From: a virus
DNA: 20,681 nucleotides
Direction: 5' to 3' (one strand)
Virus record (IMG/VR): IMGVR_UViG_3300029922_000336
Span: 1-20,681 of that record
The position numbers and the translations under genes were made by a program. Below, one piece after another: positions 5,000 to 15,853 of this stretch (within the stretch, counting starts at the first letter, position 1; each line of letters starts with the position of its first letter). The notes beneath the pieces are model-generated. The model was not told the origin of the DNA. It saw nothing but the letters and a program-made list of their open reading frames with translations, and ran no database searches.

Positions 5000-5650
5000 A
5001 TGGGAAGAAGTATATTTTGCAGTACGTGTAAGAAAGAAAAAGAGCCGGGTCGTGACAATGAAAGCCGTTGCAAAGCTTGTAAGAGCCAAGCAAATATAGA
5101 AAAGAGGGCGAAAAAGCGTGCGGAAGCAGGTTTAGAGCCTTACGGTTCTGGAAGAAGCTTGTATTGTTGCGACTGTAAGGCTGTAAAGGAAAGGCGGGAC
5201 TATGGTTACTGTAATGCTTGCAGACGTAAGCGTGATAATGAAAATAGATTGGCCAAAGGAGTTACCAAGAAGCATCAAACGGGAAGATGTCCGTGTGGTG
5301 AAGAAAGGGCTTCATATAGCAAATCATATTGCGTTACTTGTTTAGCAAGAATATCAAAAATTCGTAGGGAACGAATTCCTCTTACACGAGAACAAAAAGA
5401 TAAGATTTGTGCGCGGATGAAATTAAGGAATGAATTGCAGTTATTAAAGCATGCCGCTAGAAATCTAGTGGGATTGCATATAAGAACGGGACGATTAATT
5501 CCAAAACCGTGTGAAATTTGTGGTACAGATTTACAGATAGAAGCTCACCATGATGACTATGATAAACCGTTAGATGTACGATGGCTTTGCAGACATCATC
5601 ATAGGGAGTACCATAAAACTTTAAGAGGACAAAATCATGTCAGTAGATAA
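5000..5650 (+). CDS. HNH homing-type endonuclease with N-terminal Cys fingers
   Basis: 216 residues. The C-terminal domain carries CEICG (171-175), EAHHDDYDKPLDVRWLC (181-197) and HHHREYH (199-205), an HNH nuclease core with a zinc-holding CxxC. The N-terminus has three repeated cysteine modules: C7/C10/C24/C27, C56/C57/C59 with C71/C74, and C97/C99/C111/C114, each followed by a basic helix, probably zinc-ribbon DNA-binding units. HNH proteins inserted between phage structural genes usually cut a homologous phage lacking the gene and spread by repair (family knowledge). GAGGAG (4989-4994) is the ribosome site, within a hairpin. The last 14 bases overlap the next gene and also hold that gene's ribosome site, suggesting insertion into an existing coat-decoration junction. 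No intron boundaries are evident. Confidence 0.85.
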   Translation: MGRSIFCSTCKKEKEPGRDNESRCKACKSQANIEKRAKKRAEAGLEPYGSGRSLYCCDCKAVKERRDYGYCNACRRKRDNENRLAKGVTKKHQTGRCPCGEERASYSKSYCVTCLARISKIRRERIPLTREQKDKICARMKLRNELQLLKHAARNLVGLHIRTGRLIPKPCEICGTDLQIEAHHDDYDKPLDVRWLCRHHHREYHKTLRGQNHVSR

Positions 5651-9148: not shown

Positions 9149-9757
9149 ATGGATCCAATAACAATGGCAGCGTTAGCAGCGGCTTTGTATGGAGGGTATA
9201 AAAGTTTTGGTGGTGGCTATAAAAATCCTGCTGGAACAGCTAATAAAACTTTAGACCAGATTCCCGGTCAAACTAACCAATATTATCAACCATATGCTGA
9301 TGCTGGTAAAGGAGCTCTTGGTGACCTACAAAACCAATACAAAGGGTTATTAGGCGGTGATGTTTACAATAAGATTGCTGGTGATTACAAGGAATCTCCA
9401 GGCTACCAGTTTCAACTTCATCAAGCGTTAGAAGCTGGAAATAATGCTTCTGCAGCGGGTGGATTGGCTGGAACTCCTTCCCACGAACAACAAAACATGG
9501 GTATAGCACAAGACTTGGCAGCTAAAGATTTTAATCAATACTTCCAAAATGCTTCTGGATTATATAGTCAAGGATTGAAAGGTGAAGAAGGACTTAATGC
9601 TCAAGGGTATGATGCTAATTCTAGTATGGGTAATCTTTGGGCTCAGGTACTTGGCAAGCAATCTTCTAACTTATTCAGCGGTGAAACCGGCAGAAATCAA
9701 TATACATCCAGCGGAACCGATGACATTTTCAAATCATTAGGTTTCTTTGGCAATTAA
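9149..9757 (+). CDS. Ejection protein, gp7-like position
   Basis: 202 residues with AAGGAG before ATG 9149. N-terminus MDPITMAALAAALYGGYKSF is a short hydrophobic helix; the middle has ESPGYQFQLHQALEAGNNAS then AAGGLAGTP and DLAAKDFNQYFQNASGLYSQ. The S-P-G-Y-x-F-x-L-x-Q-x-L-x-A motif followed by a Gly/Ala-rich stretch is widespread in podovirus internal virion proteins annotated as DNA-transfer or injection proteins. P22 encodes three ejection proteins (gp7, gp20, gp16) in this genome position; this is the smallest and first of the three here. They are expelled before the DNA and build a conduit across the envelope (known for P22 and T7). P22 gp7 is about 229 residues, close in size. Confidence 0.7.
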   Translation: MDPITMAALAAALYGGYKSFGGGYKNPAGTANKTLDQIPGQTNQYYQPYADAGKGALGDLQNQYKGLLGGDVYNKIAGDYKESPGYQFQLHQALEAGNNASAAGGLAGTPSHEQQNMGIAQDLAAKDFNQYFQNASGLYSQGLKGEEGLNAQGYDANSSMGNLWAQVLGKQSSNLFSGETGRNQYTSSGTDDIFKSLGFFGN

Positions 9758-9774
9758 GGTGGGAGTCATTAATC

Positions 9775-10797
9775 ATGCCAAATATCCCCTTCGGATTAGG
9801 TAACGGAACACAATTGCTGAATGCCGGACAATCAGGCGCTACAAGCTTAATGGACGCTCTACGCTCTGGGATTGAAACGTATCAGAAGAATGAAGAAGCT
9901 AAGAATACGCCGAAGCGGTTGAGTGAGGCGTTACTTGGACAGCAGATTACTAATAAGATGAATCAGCAGAAGGCTGATTATGAGCCTATGCGTCAGCAGT
10001 TGGAGCAGCATTTAACACAAGCCAGAATTCAGAAAGCATTGCGAGGGCCTGAACCAACATATAATAATTTAGAGAAAGCTATGCAAGGCGCGCAGCGGAT
10101 TACACAACAATATGGCGCCGATTCTCAAGAAGCTAAATTAGCTCAAACTTACGTGCAAAGACTTGCTCAAGGTTCGCAAGGACTGCAATTGACTACTGAC
10201 CCGGCTACCGGCGCATTAACATCTTTATCATTTGGCGGTTCATCTCGCGGAGGTCCACAATCTGCATTGGTCAATGATGAAAATGGAAATCCAACAATGG
10301 TTAGCAAGCCGACAACTGCTCAAGCTAGCGCACAACAAAAAACTTCTCTTTCAGAGATTGGACGATCAACAATAGCTAAAAAAGCCGAAATGCCATATGT
10401 TGGCTCAGGTTCAAATCAACAAATTTTAGAAGATAGATTTAACTATTCCAAAAAAGGCGACAAAGAAGCCGGTAAAAGATTAGTGCAAGCTGCTGTGGCC
10501 AAAATGATAGCTCCTGAATACGCCGGATTTCAATTGGCGTCTCAAGGTGTTGCGGCTACTATCCCCGCTTTGAATCATCAGTTTGAAACTATTAAACAAG
10601 GCTGGCCAGCAACAGCAAATTTAGTGGTAGAAAATCTTCCCCAAGAACTTCAGAAGCAGGCTAAAGAAGAGCATGCTAAATTATTGGCCGAAATAAAATC
10701 TGCTAAAGAACAACATGCTGCGAAAGGTTATCCTGTGAAACTAGAAGGAAATAAAAAACGATTGAAATATAATACTTCCACAGGGAGGTTAGAATAA
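9775..10797 (+). CDS. Internal virion / ejection protein, gp20-like position
   Basis: 340 residues, GGGAG before ATG 9775. Mostly helical and rich in Gln, Ala and Lys; N-terminal SGIETYQKNEEAKNTPKRLS, a Gln-rich helix (QQLEQHLTQARIQKALRGPE), a central Gly/Ser region (FGGSSRGGPQ, residues about 153-162) and a C-terminal half with a weakly hydrophobic ATIPALNHQF segment and a basic end. No enzymatic motif seen. It is second of three consecutive genes after the tail hub, matching P22 gp20, an ejected protein. Its stop codon (10795-10797) shares one base with the next start, implying coupled translation and fixed stoichiometry with its partner. The family link is by position and composition rather than a recognised motif. 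Confidence 0.6.
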   Translation: MPNIPFGLGNGTQLLNAGQSGATSLMDALRSGIETYQKNEEAKNTPKRLSEALLGQQITNKMNQQKADYEPMRQQLEQHLTQARIQKALRGPEPTYNNLEKAMQGAQRITQQYGADSQEAKLAQTYVQRLAQGSQGLQLTTDPATGALTSLSFGGSSRGGPQSALVNDENGNPTMVSKPTTAQASAQQKTSLSEIGRSTIAKKAEMPYVGSGSNQQILEDRFNYSKKGDKEAGKRLVQAAVAKMIAPEYAGFQLASQGVAATIPALNHQFETIKQGWPATANLVVENLPQELQKQAKEEHAKLLAEIKSAKEQHAAKGYPVKLEGNKKRLKYNTSTGRLE

Positions 10798-12011
10798 TGG
10801 AAATTGAATTGCCTAATGGACAAATAGCAGAATTCCCAGATGATATGCCTCATGAAGATATTGAAAAGGTGCTTCAATCTCATTTTCCTATGAAATCAGA
10901 GATCCCATCCATTGAATTTCCTCAGTCGCATCATAGCGCTTTTGCTAATTTATTACATGGATTACGAGAAGGCTATCCTCATGCTTTAAAAGGCGATATA
11001 AATGCGGTGGCCCAATTGTTTGGACGCCAACCATTTGAAAATCAGGAATTAGAATCTAATGCGCCTTTATCTGAAAGAATTGGTCGAGGATTTGGAGAAG
11101 TTGGAGGACATCTGTCAGCTATAATTCCCGCCGCAACCGCCTCAGAAGCATTGATTCCAGGTTTGGCTGGCGCAAGTATAGGTGCTGGATTAGCAGGAGC
11201 TGCAACGACACCAGGTGGTCTTAAAGAGCGATTGACAAGCGGAGTTTTAGAAGCAGCAATTCCAGCCGCGTTTAAAGGAGTAAAAGAAGCAGGAAAACTT
11301 GGTATAGCAGCATTGCGAAAAAGTCCTACGCCAAGAATGGCTGCAGATGTTATTCAAAAAAGTCACGCGACTGCACATGACTTTGCAGTCGAACCGCTCA
11401 ATAAAGCGGAACAAGAAGCATCAAAAGTTGGAAAACCAATACGGTTATCTAACAAAATATTAACCGCAGCTGAAGATGCTTTAGCAAATACCAAAGCAAA
11501 TAAAGCTTTAATTGATAAAGCTAAAAAAGGTGATTATAAATCTGTATTTAAACTACAGTCTGATTTATGGAAAAGAGGCAATTCTTTTGCGTCCAAGCAA
11601 ACGCAAGCTGAAATAGATAGAGGACAAGAGATATTTGATCTTAGGGATAGCATGCTTAATGGAATGAAAGCTCATTATGATTATTTGGGAAAAAATAATG
11701 TATCAAAAAATCTTGCTGAAGGACAAAAAAGATACCAGCAATTTGCTGATACTTATTTAACCAATCCCACAGTTGCTAAACTTGTAGGTGAAGAAAAAAT
11801 TGTACCAAAGAACTTGCTCTCTAAATTAGAAGGTGACACAGCTTATTTCAATAAATTAAAAAATGAGATTCCAGAAATAGGGAAGATGCTCGAACTTCAG
11901 AAATCGAAGCAAAATCTTAAAAAAGCTGGAAAATACGTGGCGGGGCTAGGTCATCTTGGTGCTTTATCTAAATATTTACTTGGTGGCGGCAGTTCCCCAC
12001 TAGAAAAGTGA
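10797..12011 (+). CDS. Internal virion / ejection protein, gp16-like position
   Basis: 404 residues; GGGAGG upstream and a one-base overlap with the previous gene. The N-terminus (MEIELPNGQIAEFPDDMPHE, then IEKVLQSHFP) has the F-P-D-x-M-x-x-x-x-I-x-x-x-L motif often found at the head of podovirus ejection proteins and phage-associated transglycosylases. Residues about 100-145 form a Gly/Ala-rich hydrophobic segment (AIIPAATASEALIPGLAGAS then IGAGLAGAA) that could insert in a membrane, fitting the conduit role known for P22 gp16. The rest is helical and basic. P22 gp16 is 609 residues, so this one is shorter. No lytic transglycosylase catalytic motif seen. It is the last gene of the morphogenetic run before an island with opposite-strand transcription. 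Confidence 0.65.
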   Translation: MEIELPNGQIAEFPDDMPHEDIEKVLQSHFPMKSEIPSIEFPQSHHSAFANLLHGLREGYPHALKGDINAVAQLFGRQPFENQELESNAPLSERIGRGFGEVGGHLSAIIPAATASEALIPGLAGASIGAGLAGAATTPGGLKERLTSGVLEAAIPAAFKGVKEAGKLGIAALRKSPTPRMAADVIQKSHATAHDFAVEPLNKAEQEASKVGKPIRLSNKILTAAEDALANTKANKALIDKAKKGDYKSVFKLQSDLWKRGNSFASKQTQAEIDRGQEIFDLRDSMLNGMKAHYDYLGKNNVSKNLAEGQKRYQQFADTYLTNPTVAKLVGEEKIVPKNLLSKLEGDTAYFNKLKNEIPEIGKMLELQKSKQNLKKAGKYVAGLGHLGALSKYLLGGGSSPLEK

Positions 12012-12302: not shown

Positions 12303-12372
12303 CAATAGTTTTAGATAATATTTAAGCGGAGTGACATTGATATGATTTGTATAGTTTAATCAAGGTGTTGTG

Positions 12373-12428
12373 TATAATGCTAGGCTAGCTAAGGGATTGC
12401 TGCGTATCTCGTCGAAAATTTACGCAGC
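12373..12428 (+). promoter_or_regulatory. Possible -10 box and leader hairpin before the winged-helix gene
   Basis: A perfect TATAAT (12373-12378) lies 84 bases before the winged-helix start, with no good -35 at 16-18 bases. It is followed by a leader containing a perfect 8-bp stem GCTGCGTA/TACGCAGC (12399-12406, 12421-12428) with a 14-base loop, and a GCTAGC palindrome (12384-12389). No T-run follows. The weak -35 hints at an activator. Of the remaining bases in the 12012-12462 gap, 12303-12372 shows nothing I recognise. Confidence 0.35.
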
Positions 12429-12462
12429 TAGTTGTACTTTCTAAATACCGGACGATTATAAC

Positions 12463-13041
12463 ATGTCATCTGAAAAATCAAACCCCATCTATTTTCAAAT
12501 TCCAAAATTAATGACTGACCATCCTAAAATAACAGGCGATCATATTTTTATTTTCATGCCACTCTATGAACAACTTCGACAATCTCCTTGCGATAAAACT
12601 GGCTATAACAAAACCAACGAGTTTCTATCTGAATTTTCAAAAGCTAGCCTAAGTACGGTAAAAAGAAAGTTAAACGATTTAGAGGTATGGGGATTTTTAT
12701 CAAGAATAGGAATGGGATATAACAGAAAGTTTTTCCTTGGCATAAATTTTGTTCAGCAGGGTCAAATTGACCTGGTTAATAACGGAACAACTGGGTCAGA
12801 ACGACCCATCACAGGGTCACAAAGACCCAGTACTGGGTCAAAAACGCACTACATAGCTAAGAATATTGTTAAGAATATTAATAAGAACACTTTTGCTTAC
12901 GCAACTTCAACTTCAAAACCAAAAAATGAGGAGGTGGTTAATAGTGAGTATTTAAATGAAATGAAGTTATTAAAAAATCTTGGCATTCATAATCAAATTA
13001 TTAATTATGAGGAATGGAAAATTAAGAAGGGGTATGTTTGA
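12463..13041 (+). CDS. Winged-helix DNA-binding protein, candidate replication initiator
   Basis: 192 residues. Residues about 15-95 form a helix-turn-helix/winged-helix domain: GDHIFIFMPLYEQL, NEFLSEFSKASLSTVKRKLN (recognition helix region) and DLEVWGFLSRIGMGYNRKFF (wing). The arrangement resembles the N-terminal domains of phage replication O proteins and related initiators (family knowledge). Residues about 99-130 form a low-complexity linker with repeated TGSxRP units, encoded by DNA repeats that look like iterons; the C-terminal 60 residues are Asn/Lys-rich with a basic helix. In phage lambda the origin iterons likewise sit in the middle of gene O. Ribosome site is weak (GGA at 12449-12451). 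It could instead be an autoregulated transcription factor. No helicase-loader partner is seen in the window. The next gene overlaps by one base. Confidence 0.6.
   Translation: MSSEKSNPIYFQIPKLMTDHPKITGDHIFIFMPLYEQLRQSPCDKTGYNKTNEFLSEFSKASLSTVKRKLNDLEVWGFLSRIGMGYNRKFFLGINFVQQGQIDLVNNGTTGSERPITGSQRPSTGSKTHYIAKNIVKNINKNTFAYATSTSKPKNEEVVNSEYLNEMKLLKNLGIHNQIINYEEWKIKKGYV
12759..12840 (+). repeat. Iteron array inside the winged-helix gene
   Basis: GGGTCA occurs at 12759, 12793, 12814 and 12835. The first three copies are paired with a downstream GACC (12769-12772, 12803-12806, 12824-12827), making dyads of about 15 bases. The last three copies are spaced exactly 21 bases (two helical turns), all on one DNA face, and encode a 7-residue protein repeat. 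The first copy is 34 bases before the second. Confidence 0.75.
12857..12890 (+). other. AT-rich repeat next to iterons (candidate DNA-unwinding element)
   Basis: Immediately after the iterons lie two copies of TTAAGAATATT-like sequence (CTAAGAATATT at 12857-12867 and TTAAGAATATT at 12869-12879), then ATAAGAA. The stretch is almost all A/T apart from the G in each repeat. In lambda ori an AT-rich segment follows the iterons in the same way and is where the strands open. Confidence 0.5.
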
Positions 13042-13199
13042 TGAAATGTAATTTTTGTGATCATTATAAAGTTTCAAAATATAATTTATGCAGAATGTGC
13101 AATCAATTAATGAATAATGCTAAAAAAGATCCAGACGCTTATAATGACGATGTGAAAAAATGTTTAAAGGAATGGTTGCGTGCTCGAAACAGTGATTGA
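13041..13199 (+). CDS. Small Cys4 zinc-ribbon-like protein (52 aa)
   Basis: The start ATG 13041 overlaps the previous stop (TGATG), with GAAGGGG (13026-13032) upstream, so it is translationally coupled to the winged-helix protein. The product has C3-x2-C6 and C17-x2-C20, i.e. CNFC ten residues before CRMC, a compact zinc-binding knuckle, followed by a charged helix ending CLKEWLRARNSD. Its role is unknown; the coupling suggests it assists or modulates the DNA-binding neighbour. Its 3' end overlaps the next gene's GTG start by 20 bases. Too short for many gene callers. Confidence 0.6.
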   Translation: MKCNFCDHYKVSKYNLCRMCNQLMNNAKKDPDAYNDDVKKCLKEWLRARNSD

Positions 13200-13368
13200 T
13201 AGAGATACCAGTCAAGAAAATTATATCGATCATGAAGTGCGCCTTAGAATTCAAGAGCATCTATACAAGCAGATTTCAAGACGACTAAACACAATCATTG
13301 CCTTATGCGGAAGCATAGTAGCAATAGTTGTCGTTCCGATTATCCTTCATAAATTTGGATTAACTTAA
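13180..13368 (+). CDS. Small one-pass membrane protein with DHEVRLR motif (62 aa)
   Basis: GTG start at 13180, with AAAGGA (13167-13172) at good spacing; no in-frame ATG exists near the beginning. N-terminal half is charged and helical with DHEVRLRIQEHLYKQISRRL (residues 18-37), then a hydrophobic transmembrane segment IIALCGSIVAIVVVPIIL (about 39-56) and a short HKFGLT end. The design (short coiled helix then C-terminal membrane anchor) is that of XhlA-type and other small phage membrane proteins sometimes tied to lysis or holin function (family knowledge). It is a paralogue of the next gene. It lies far from the lysozyme gene, so a lysis role is uncertain; superinfection exclusion is another possibility. 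Confidence 0.6.
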   Translation: MLETVIDRDTSQENYIDHEVRLRIQEHLYKQISRRLNTIIALCGSIVAIVVVPIILHKFGLT

Positions 13369-13371
13369 GTC

Positions 13372-13572
13372 ATGGACGACTTAAATAACCCCATCATCGA
13401 CCACGAAGTCCGCCTAAGAATGCTAGAAGAAGCCATAAAAAGCATCCACGGTAGATTCGACACTTTAGACGCCGAGTTCAAAGCCATCCGTTCCACCCTA
13501 ATCAGCATCGTAGTATGGACATTAGTATCAGTAGCAATACCAATAGCGCTCCATTATTTCAAGCTTGATTAA
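13372..13572 (+). CDS. Second DHEVRLR membrane protein, paralogue of the preceding gene (66 aa)
   Basis: ATG 13372, three bases after the previous stop, with no clear ribosome site, implying reinitiation by ribosomes from the upstream gene. The protein starts MDDLNNPIIDHEVRLRMLEE, has a helix with FDTLDAEFKAIRSTL, then a transmembrane segment ISIVVWTLVSVAIPIALHYF (about 44-63) and ends KLD. It shares the DHEVRLR box, the spacing to the membrane segment and the H-x-F-x-L end with its neighbour, but little else and different codon use (more C-ending codons), so the duplication is old or the two arrived separately. They may form a hetero-oligomer in the inner membrane (inference). Function as for the paralogue: unknown, XhlA/holin-like topology. 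Confidence 0.6.
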   Translation: MDDLNNPIIDHEVRLRMLEEAIKSIHGRFDTLDAEFKAIRSTLISIVVWTLVSVAIPIALHYFKLD

Positions 13573-13648: not shown

Positions 13649-15853
13649 ATGCCTTTTCCGAATCCATTGTTAATAGCTTCCCCACCTTTGGAATACATTT
13701 TTCTTAATAAAGATGACGGAACTTTACTATCTGGCGGCGTGGTTTCCTTCTTCAGTGACCCAGCTTTCGCGGTATCAAAAAGCGTATATGAAATTAGTAA
13801 TGCTCCTGACGGTTCAATCGACTTTGTTGATTTAGGAAATGTTTTAATTCTTTCATCGATTGGTACATTCGTTGATGCAGGTGGCTCAAATCTAATACCC
13901 TATTATTATCCATACGAAGGCAATCCTACTGATGCGAGTCCGGGTAATCCACAATTATATTATATTAAAGTAGAAAGCTCAGGTCTCGTTCTGCAATTTA
14001 CACTCTCTGACTGGCCGCCTAATGCATTTGACTTTACAGCGTTGCCAGTACAAGTAACACAAACTCAGAATTTAGTAACGAATCCACAGTTCGTAACTGT
14101 CTCTTTTGATACAAATCCAGCGACCACGCCATATGTCTATAATGTAAGTGGCTCAAATACATTAACCGAGCTTGCGCCTAATTGGTTCTTAAAAACCTCC
14201 GGTTCAGGAACAGTTACCGTTAAGCAGATTACATTATCAGCCATGGTCAGTGATGCGCCATACGCAATTCAAATTTCTGGTTCTTCTGGCGTTGTGGCTA
14301 TGGCTCTTGTGCAAAGAATCTATAACAGTCCATCGTTGCTGGCGGGAAGTATTGCGGCAGGTTATTTTTTAGCGGCATCTCCAGTTGGAACAGAGTCAAC
14401 TGTCACGATGACGCTAGCTCCTTCCGATGGCATGTCATCATGGACAATAGCTTCGGGGACAACAACCCCAGATACGCTTTATAAAGCGATTACAGGCTCG
14501 GTTTTGATTGGGACTCCATACAACACCAATCCTGCTACAACAGGCTACGTAGATATAATTCTTACTATTACACCCAATACCACAGTACAGTTAACAAGCA
14601 TTCAGGTACTTGGAGTTCCATCATTAGCCGACATTCCTGGTTTCATTCAAGAATCTACACCGCAGCAGATTAATGGCTTATTCAGTTACTTCCAACCAGA
14701 ATTAAACTACAAGCCTATACCAAGTTATTTAACTGGTTGGGATTTTGCATTGAATCCAGCTCAGACTGGGGCTACAGTTGTGGCATCTGCAATTGGTGCT
14801 AATAAATCCAAGTATGTATGGGACCAGACGATTGTCTTTCAATCAACTGATTCAGGTGTTGGTGTTACTCGGGCGAGTTCTGGGGCAATTGTATTGACAG
14901 CAGCTGCTGCTACTCAAATGGCATTAGTTCAATATTTGGACCAACGACAAGCTAGAGATTTATTGAATGGACCTGTTAGTGTTAATGTATCCGCATTCGC
15001 AAGTGCATCGACAACCGCCTGTGTTTCCTTGTGGTATACAACTGGTGCTACTTTGCCAGTAATCACTGCAGGGACTAACAATTCTATTGTTGCTACTCTT
15101 GATGCGAATGGGCATCCAGCAACTACTAATACTGGTCCCTGGGTTGAAGTGCCAAGAGCAAATTTTGGTAACTCTATATTTACCATCGGAACTTCTAGCA
15201 CTCAGAATTTTAATGATTATGGATTTTCGGGATGGGACCTTCTAGGAAGCAGCGCGGGGATTACAACGGCAACTTATTTTGCGATTGTTGTTGGAACAGG
15301 TACAGTACCTATTAATGGCACTGTAACGATAGGCTCTATTTCTTTGGTTCCTGGTTATATTCCTACGAGACCGGCACCTCAGACATACGACGAAGTATTG
15401 CGTGAATGTCAATATTATTATGAGCAGAGTTATCCATTTACTGTAACGCCTGGGACAGCAAGTTCTACAAATGGCGAATTAATTTATCCGATGTCTAGTG
15501 TAAATTATACCACCAATACTGGGCCTGTAACCTATAGTTGGTATTCAAGTGGAGCGCCATTTACTATTCCATTGAAAGCAAGTAAACGTCTTAATACTTA
15601 TACACCAGTTTTCTATGCACCTGCTGCAGGAACAGTTGCCAATTTTACGTATACAAAATACACACCGTCAGCGTCCTCATCAAGTGTTGCAGTTTCAAAT
15701 TGGGCATTTATTGCTGGTTATGACGTTGTAACAGCGACCATTTCATCATCATTTAATTTAGCATCTGCAACAGGCATAACAACAGCAACGCCTTCTTATT
15801 CTGGCTCTGTTGCTTTGCATTATGTAGTGGATGCGCGTTTGGGAGTAATTTAA
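13649..15853 (+). CDS. Large tail fibre / tail-associated protein (734 aa)
   Basis: Begins MPFPNPLLIASPPLEYIFLN. The N-terminal 140 residues have LNKDDGTLLSGGVVSFFSDP, LSSIGTFVDAGGSNLIPYYY and LYYIKVESSGLVLQFTLSDW, a module I recognise from many podovirus tail proteins where it probably attaches the fibre to the virion. The long middle is Thr/Ser/Gly-rich beta structure. Near residue 575 comes RPAPQTYDEVLRECQYYYEQ, a motif that often marks the start of a C-terminal receptor or trimerisation domain in tail proteins. No depolymerase active site is recognised. The start lacks a ribosome site and follows the hairpin at 13583-13644; the alternative start upstream is blocked by stops. First of seven consecutive fibre-type genes. 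Confidence 0.7.
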   Translation: MPFPNPLLIASPPLEYIFLNKDDGTLLSGGVVSFFSDPAFAVSKSVYEISNAPDGSIDFVDLGNVLILSSIGTFVDAGGSNLIPYYYPYEGNPTDASPGNPQLYYIKVESSGLVLQFTLSDWPPNAFDFTALPVQVTQTQNLVTNPQFVTVSFDTNPATTPYVYNVSGSNTLTELAPNWFLKTSGSGTVTVKQITLSAMVSDAPYAIQISGSSGVVAMALVQRIYNSPSLLAGSIAAGYFLAASPVGTESTVTMTLAPSDGMSSWTIASGTTTPDTLYKAITGSVLIGTPYNTNPATTGYVDIILTITPNTTVQLTSIQVLGVPSLADIPGFIQESTPQQINGLFSYFQPELNYKPIPSYLTGWDFALNPAQTGATVVASAIGANKSKYVWDQTIVFQSTDSGVGVTRASSGAIVLTAAAATQMALVQYLDQRQARDLLNGPVSVNVSAFASASTTACVSLWYTTGATLPVITAGTNNSIVATLDANGHPATTNTGPWVEVPRANFGNSIFTIGTSSTQNFNDYGFSGWDLLGSSAGITTATYFAIVVGTGTVPINGTVTIGSISLVPGYIPTRPAPQTYDEVLRECQYYYEQSYPFTVTPGTASSTNGELIYPMSSVNYTTNTGPVTYSWYSSGAPFTIPLKASKRLNTYTPVFYAPAAGTVANFTYTKYTPSASSSSVAVSNWAFIAGYDVVTATISSSFNLASATGITTATPSYSGSVALHYVVDARLGVI

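Follow-up and report, generated by a model that had tools for sequence, protein, structure and literature searches.

A 192-aa winged-helix gene in the late region of a phage contains repeated sites and an A+T-rich stretch within its own coding sequence. This raises the question whether the locus is the replication origin of the phage, an additional origin or an array of another function. The window, i.e., the whole 20,681-base stretch of DNA that was analyzed, derives from a phage whose portal is P22-like (Pfam P22_portal, 2.8e-36), and its virus record has no end repeats. A preliminary description, made from the sequence, had proposed a lambda-O-like origin.

Iterons and an A+T-rich element lie within the gene

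The linker-coding part of the gene holds three GGTCA-N4-GACC dyads and one half-site (Table 1). Iterons 2, 3 and 4 start exactly 21 bases apart (12793, 12814 and 12835) and iteron 1 lies 34 bases upstream of iteron 2. No further near-exact GGTCA-N4-GACC dyad is present in the 20.7-kb record beyond iterons 1-3. The preliminary description had reported four GGGTCA elements, three of them as dyads, in the linker-coding part and a 21-base phasing of three elements, and its coordinates proved exact on both points.

Directly 3' of the iterons, as in in-gene origins of the O-type, follows an A+T-rich segment that is kept in three relatives (L006, L100 and L101). Such a stretch with a duplicated sequence had been described before; the stretch is present, but TAAGAATATT at 12858 and 12870 is followed by a third TAAGAA at 12882, giving three copies with a 12-bp period and not two. 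Within the window the stretch falls in the 98.6-99.5th percentile of helix instability, and the element of a further relative, L239, is not extreme (77th-85th percentile). The A+T-richness could be partly a by-product of the Lys/Asn-rich linker.

Table 1. Features of the cassette, its neighbors and the early O-like genes of two related phages. Coordinates refer to the window unless a locus is given.
Feature	Coordinates	Strand	Basis or remark
Cassette	12343-13041	+	blastn; stretch with DNA similarity to L101 (12343-12918) plus rest of gene
TATAAT, candidate -10 of the cassette promoter	12373-12378	+	sequence; poor -35; TTGTGTATAATGC common to L101
Leader hairpin	12399-12428	+	sequence comparison; 8-bp stem, 14-nt loop
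Winged-helix initiator-like protein, 192 aa	12463-13041	+	PHROGs matches, model, dN/dS
Iteron 1, dyad GGGTCAAATTGACCT	12759-12773	+	
Iteron 2, dyad GGGTCAGAACGACCC	12793-12807	+	
Iteron 3, dyad GGGTCACAAAGACCC	12814-12828	+	
Iteron 4, half-site GGGTCAAAAACGCAC	12835-12849	+	within 38-nt block identical in L006
A+T-rich element TAAGAATATTGT / TAAGAATATTAA / TAAGAA	12858-12887	+	12-bp period; candidate unwinding element
404-aa gene	10797-12011		upstream neighbor of winged-helix gene
Tail gene	13649-15853		downstream neighbor of winged-helix gene
Early O-like gene of G010	L111:1476-2312	-	
Early O-like gene of G015	L108:967-1770	+	

The array is conserved as DNA

When the codons of the gene were resampled synonymously 20,000 times, three dyads were obtained in none of the recodings (maximum two); four GGGTCA elements likewise never arose and three arose in eight cases. 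On generic 5-nt dyad arms, of which two were observed, the synonymous shuffle is a test without power. Copies 2-4 of the iterons share a reading frame that is not that of copy 1, and according to the alignment the array of L006 uses all three frames; therefore the array is not one peptide repeat. Moreover, positions 12827-12864, from the end of iteron 3 through the first TAAGAA, are identical to L006 at 38 of 38 nt. Among the codons shared with L006, 12 of 12 are identical in this block compared to 49 of 104 (47%) elsewhere (p about 1e-4), and an exact-sequence search with the iteron-4 block had L006 as its sole match. From the recodings, the reading frames and the nucleotide and codon identity together it follows that the DNA of the array is conserved as DNA.

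A repeat that arose by chance or at the level of the peptide (TGSxRP-type), with no function of the DNA, would agree with copies 2-4 standing in one frame and encoding TGS motifs. However, the different frames of copy 1 and of L006, the failure of all 20,000 recodings, the synonymous identity over 38 nt with L006 and the concerted replacement of iterons in relatives (see below) refute this explanation in practice and leave it next to no probability.

Rfam contains no family matching at the array or the leader; weak matches to mir-929 and Histone3 in these places were rejected as chance.

The protein is probably of the initiator type

In the structural model (m63aaf064c082) the protein is composed of an N-domain (residues 1-108), a disordered linker (100-152), whose coding sequence contains the array, and a short helical C-end (156-189). 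A winged helix is predicted with confidence at about residues 12-105. In PHROGs the window protein matches phrog_678 (replication initiation O-like, E 5e-4) and phrog_270 (replication initiation protein, 6e-3), which are weak values taken by themselves; for L006 and L101 phrog_678 reaches about 3e-5. Across the proteins of the window, L006, L100, L101, L060, L078 and L239 the PHROG matches at E<=0.01 are nearly all replication-initiation or DnaD-like families, the best at 1e-9. Pfam Phage_rep_O does not match the window protein, sequence profiles of Pfam, NCBIfam and PDB returned nothing useful for it, and no match was found among GenBank phages and PLSDB plasmids. A RepL-type family is absent from its Pfam, PHROGs and NCBIfam matches.

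Over the full N-domain the predicted fold resembles the N-domains of the plasmid initiators 4pql, 4pt7 and 5kbj (Z 9.7-9.1, 101-111 residues), and CRP-type regulators align over 65-72 residues with Z about 9. The fold alone is undecisive between initiator and regulator. The sequence families decide better and support an initiator-type (O/DnaD-like) winged helix. Compared to L006, the N-domain has a dN/dS of about 0.04 (0.10/2.5, where dS is close to saturation), therefore the protein is under strong constraint. The C-end is short (about 40 aa) and has in the model no recognizable helicase-loader-binding domain; the long C-terminal part of O is missing.

Sites and recognition helix change together

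Related phages were collected by their major capsid protein, which gave 80 loci. The close family of the gene has four members, namely the window, L006, L100 (a contig of a Methylococcaceae MAG) and L101, and a scan with the four-member alignment returned no further relatives. Scans with the proteins of L060 and L078 yielded one new relative, L239.

The proteins of the window and L006 are 63% identical, residues 55-74 are the same and the iterons of both are of the GGGTCA type. L100 and L101 have the common iteron GCGRAATCGGAAC and differ from the window and L006 at residues 56, 61, 62, 64, 65, 68 and 72, around the predicted recognition helix (63-75). An independent comparison is provided by L078 and L239, which are also 63% identical. 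Here, the A+T block AAAGACAATAAGAAAGACATAGAT is unchanged, whereas all four iterons are swapped from the GGACAAATTG type to the CCCCAATnATTGGGG type (CCCCAAT/ATTGGGG) and residues of the recognition helix are changed too. The co-variation of helix and iterons in two independent comparisons is the strongest indication available that the array is bound by the protein. Judged from these sequences, the four copies are very probably the own binding site of the encoded protein, and we would expect with high confidence that the two interact.

Related phages carry an early O-like gene in addition

The ordinary O-like genes of related phages (L088, L092, L093, L094, L097, L111 and L108) are located in the early region and encode 258-315 aa. 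They combine a winged helix with dyad iterons that are followed by an A+T stretch, all within the gene; the iterons are GGGACATnnnTGTCCC in L088, GTCTACAACCGTAGAC in L092, AGTGTCACCATGACACT in L093 and GTCTCATCCATGCGAC in L111. Viral contigs were also scanned blindly for pairs of GGTCA-N4-GACC dyads, which resulted in 80 loci. In these, an O-like N-domain profile, built from the phages under study and not from the scanned contigs, matched 7 of 178 dyad-overlapping ORFs and none of the 3233 other ORFs.

Three near-complete genomes, G010 (with L060), G015 (with L078) and G021 (with L101), each have a short late gene among the structural genes and an early O-like gene. In G021 the latter is split across contig ends, has its own GGTCCCTGAGGGACC sites and adjoins a DnaB helicase gene. 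Early and late iterons differ within each of the three genomes, and neither clusters of early iterons at the late locus nor the reverse were detected. From the coordinates, the two loci are about 6 kb apart in G021 and about 17-20 kb apart in G010 and G015. Given that each of the three genomes has a separate early O-like gene whose iterons are different, the late gene is most likely a second locus and not the origin of the phage. By analogy, the window phage is expected to have an early O gene as well, with different iterons, outside the fragment, which does not include the early region.

The right end of L101 and the left end of L116, both of G021, lie inside the iterons of the early O gene and bear a remnant of a Nextera-like adapter (CTGTCTCTTATAC). 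Probably this genome is circularly permuted, and its contigs were separated at these iterons.

The proposal of a lambda-O-like origin can thus be kept in part. The initiator-type winged helix and the layout of in-gene array and A+T segment, as in the early O-like genes, agree with it. As the origin of the phage it is not supported, given the early O-like genes of G010, G015 and G021, and both the C-terminal part of O and a P gene are missing. The GC skew of the window, G010, G015 and G021, which is dominated by gene direction and uninformative on this point, has no switch at the late cassette.

The gene is part of an accessory cassette with its own leader

In blastn, the similarity of the window to L101 (73%, E 3e-104) starts at 12343, that to L100 at 12368 and that to L006 at 12441. 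Since the similarity to L101 begins ahead of the gene, the leader travels with the gene, and the unit of ~700 bp comprises a -10 box, a leader hairpin, the gene, the iterons and the A+T-rich element. A scan for consensus promoters did not list the TATAAT at 12373 with its poor -35, so the evidence for a cassette promoter is confined to the -10 box and its conservation. Leaders with TATAAT and hairpin are also found in L006, L100 and L101, and in L017 before a different winged-helix gene with dyads. The loop of the window hairpin, TCTCGTCGAAAATT, corresponds exactly to the reverse complement of the loop in L101 (hairpin at about 9937-9966), while the stems differ and the flanks run in the same direction; apparently, the loop was inverted between the two. 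A weak blastn match of L017 to 12702-12924 (minus strand, 61%), obtained with permissive scoring, is probably due to low complexity and was disregarded.

The cassette occupies three different sites. In the window it is flanked by the 404-aa-type gene and the tail gene, a site at which L060, L078 and L239 carry other winged helices. In L006 and L100 it is located before the lysozyme gene, and in G021 in the interval between portal and terminase, in opposite orientation. The G021 portal belongs to another family (Phage_portal_3, 6e-84), and its neighbor, for which Pfam has no match, we take to be a terminase from its sequence. The empty site was found in L047, L052, L054 and L063, in which the two flanking genes are about 60-70 bp apart. 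The position among late structural genes, which had been called unusual, is indeed late; it points to an accessory cassette and not to a displaced O gene. None of the ORFs after the gene (53, 62 and 66 aa) has a P-like match in Pfam or PHROGs, and neither a P nor a DnaB gene adjoins the gene within the window.

With a candidate promoter of its own, the gene might also be a transcription regulator that represses itself by a roadblock at the intragenic sites, which would make the array an autoregulatory operator. The -10 box with leader hairpin, the dyad sites and the winged-helix fold, which is common to regulators, would suit this, and a protein bound within the gene would cause repression anyway. 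However, the sites are located about 300-390 bp into the gene, away from the promoter, the protein families matched are those of replication, the A+T element is kept and canonical O genes have the same anatomy. We therefore regard self-repression as the function of the array as quite unlikely.

Several further observations concern the surroundings of the cassette. Two small, similar membrane-type ORFs follow it (13180-13368 and 13372-13572) and have homologues elsewhere in the phage of L101. Upstream, a divergent small gene (12302-12093, minus strand) has a near-consensus promoter (TTGACA-17-TATATT), a 39-aa ORF (12245-12126, minus strand) with a signal-peptide-like start and a GC hairpin with T run at 12117-12093; it looks like a moron beside the cassette. 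An HNH endonuclease gene between the major capsid gene and the next gene (5000-5650) is present in only some relatives and is another mobile insert. In L009, L019, L025 and L079 the block Hc3 - g8802 - g9149 (- g9775 - g10797) has the opposite orientation to that in the window and lies between g6440 and the tail gene. L017 contains amid its structural genes an ORF (9401-10501, minus strand) like the small subunit of ribonucleotide reductase, named from the appearance of its sequence only. A tRNA candidate at 2555-2624 was discarded, as the Rfam score was marginal (29.1 bits vs 29) and ARAGORN did not confirm it.

Proposed function of the cassette

The iteron array, the initiator-type protein, the co-variation of protein and sites and the recurrence of a second locus are well supported by the sequences compared here. 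We consider it rather probable that 12463-13041 is a self-contained mobile second-origin cassette in the late genes, made up of a short initiator, in-gene iterons and an unwinding site. The cassette would produce its short O/DnaD-type initiator from its own promoter, and the winged helix would bind iterons 1-4 cooperatively inside its own coding sequence. The bound initiator would then melt the TAAGAA repeats as unwinding site and a helicase from phage or host would be loaded, so that the cassette would add to the ordinary early O-type origin a second one under separate control. Binding, melting, helicase loading and timing are steps that we infer. Helicase loading is the weakest of them, as the protein has no long C-terminal part and a P gene is absent; origin function of the cassette is moderately probable. 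In broader terms, the comparisons suggest that it probably serves as a spare or late origin, or as a replication-fork block.

The latter is the main rival, although we think it unlikely. As a programmed fork barrier, the covered array would stall forks from the early origin and trigger the change from theta to recombination-dependent (sigma) concatemer synthesis. A precedent is oriR of SPP1, which lies in late genes with moron genes alongside and is thought to block forks (PMC3485210, PMC6316719). The cassette likewise occupies a late position with small moron-like genes as neighbors, its protein has no long C-terminal part, and L006 has genes for a YqaJ-type recombinase and AAA_24. A barrier has no need of the A+T 12-mers, which are retained beside the array, and the distance between early and late locus is variable, as given above for G010, G015 and G021.

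The short C-end would also be expected of a unit that interferes with replication, in which an initiator DNA-binding domain with no loader-binding part, together with decoy iterons, blocks the matching origins of competing phages. An accessory, mobile element with its own promoter and no P gene would suit such a role, and O-like genes with GGTCA-N4-GACC pairs occur in other phages (L192, L193 and others). However, four copies plus A+T 12-mers would be needless in such a unit, and we regard interference as highly improbable.

Returning to the second origin, an accessory, horizontally moving module of initiator plus origin within late genes is ordinary in kind and new in combination. Tentatively, and with slightly more doubt than confidence, we suggest a class of mobile one-gene origins, in which short initiators with private in-gene iterons and unwinding element form a second origin in the late genes of O-origin phages. 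These would be exchanged across structural modules, with arrays and helices switching together so that the two pairs work without cross-talk. If this is true, such phages have two independent initiator/origin pairs, one of which is a transferable 700-bp module, and offer a compact system for the timing of theta versus concatemer replication. The window and L006 compared to L100 and L101, as well as L078 compared to L239, are natural helix/iteron swaps for reading O-type iteron recognition.

Comparison with known systems

The iterons of lambda have dyad symmetry and a phasing of about 20 bp. In lambda, the central part of the initiator gene O contains four iterons and then an A+T-rich segment (PMC7466680). 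The window array is similarly placed inside an initiator gene, between DNA-binding N-domain and C-part and with the A+T segment directly 3', and its protein is homologous to O-like initiators (phrog_678, see above). In contrast to lambda O, the cassette is late, mobile and single-gene, has a short C-end, no adjoining P gene and another iteron sequence, and relatives carry the cassette-type gene beside another O-like gene. The early O-like genes share winged helix, intragenic dyad iterons and A+T stretch with it, but differ in length, in their long C-terminal part, in the early position and in their iterons. The staphylococcal multiresistance plasmid initiators (4pql, 4pt7, 5kbj) are alike in predicted fold over about residues 1-108, whereas a sequence relation of the window protein to the RepA_N plasmid initiators was undetected in profiles against PDB chains and in Pfam.

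P1 has a second replicon too. For its RepL/oriL, an origin was postulated inside the initiator gene, and an A+T-rich part of the gene is needed for replication (PMC9948254). The P1 elements are A/T regions and DnaA boxes, unlike the iteron array of the window.

In SPP1, oriL lies inside gene 38, and the second array, oriR, is found in a late segment bracketed by transcription signals, with moron genes; it has been proposed that G38P on oriR halts forks and initiates the synthesis of concatemers (PMC3485210, PMC6316719). An origin-type array of repeats and A+T in the late region gives the window cassette a strikingly similar setting, and in G010, G015 and G021 the late array is likewise second to an early O-like gene, which the window fragment does not reach. 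However, it is the oriL initiator that binds oriR, whereas the late array here encodes its own initiator, and the iterons are not common to the early and late loci of these three genomes. With its own iterons and no P-type partner the cassette is a strict member of neither system; it resembles a lambda-type in-gene origin in layout and SPP1 oriR in position.
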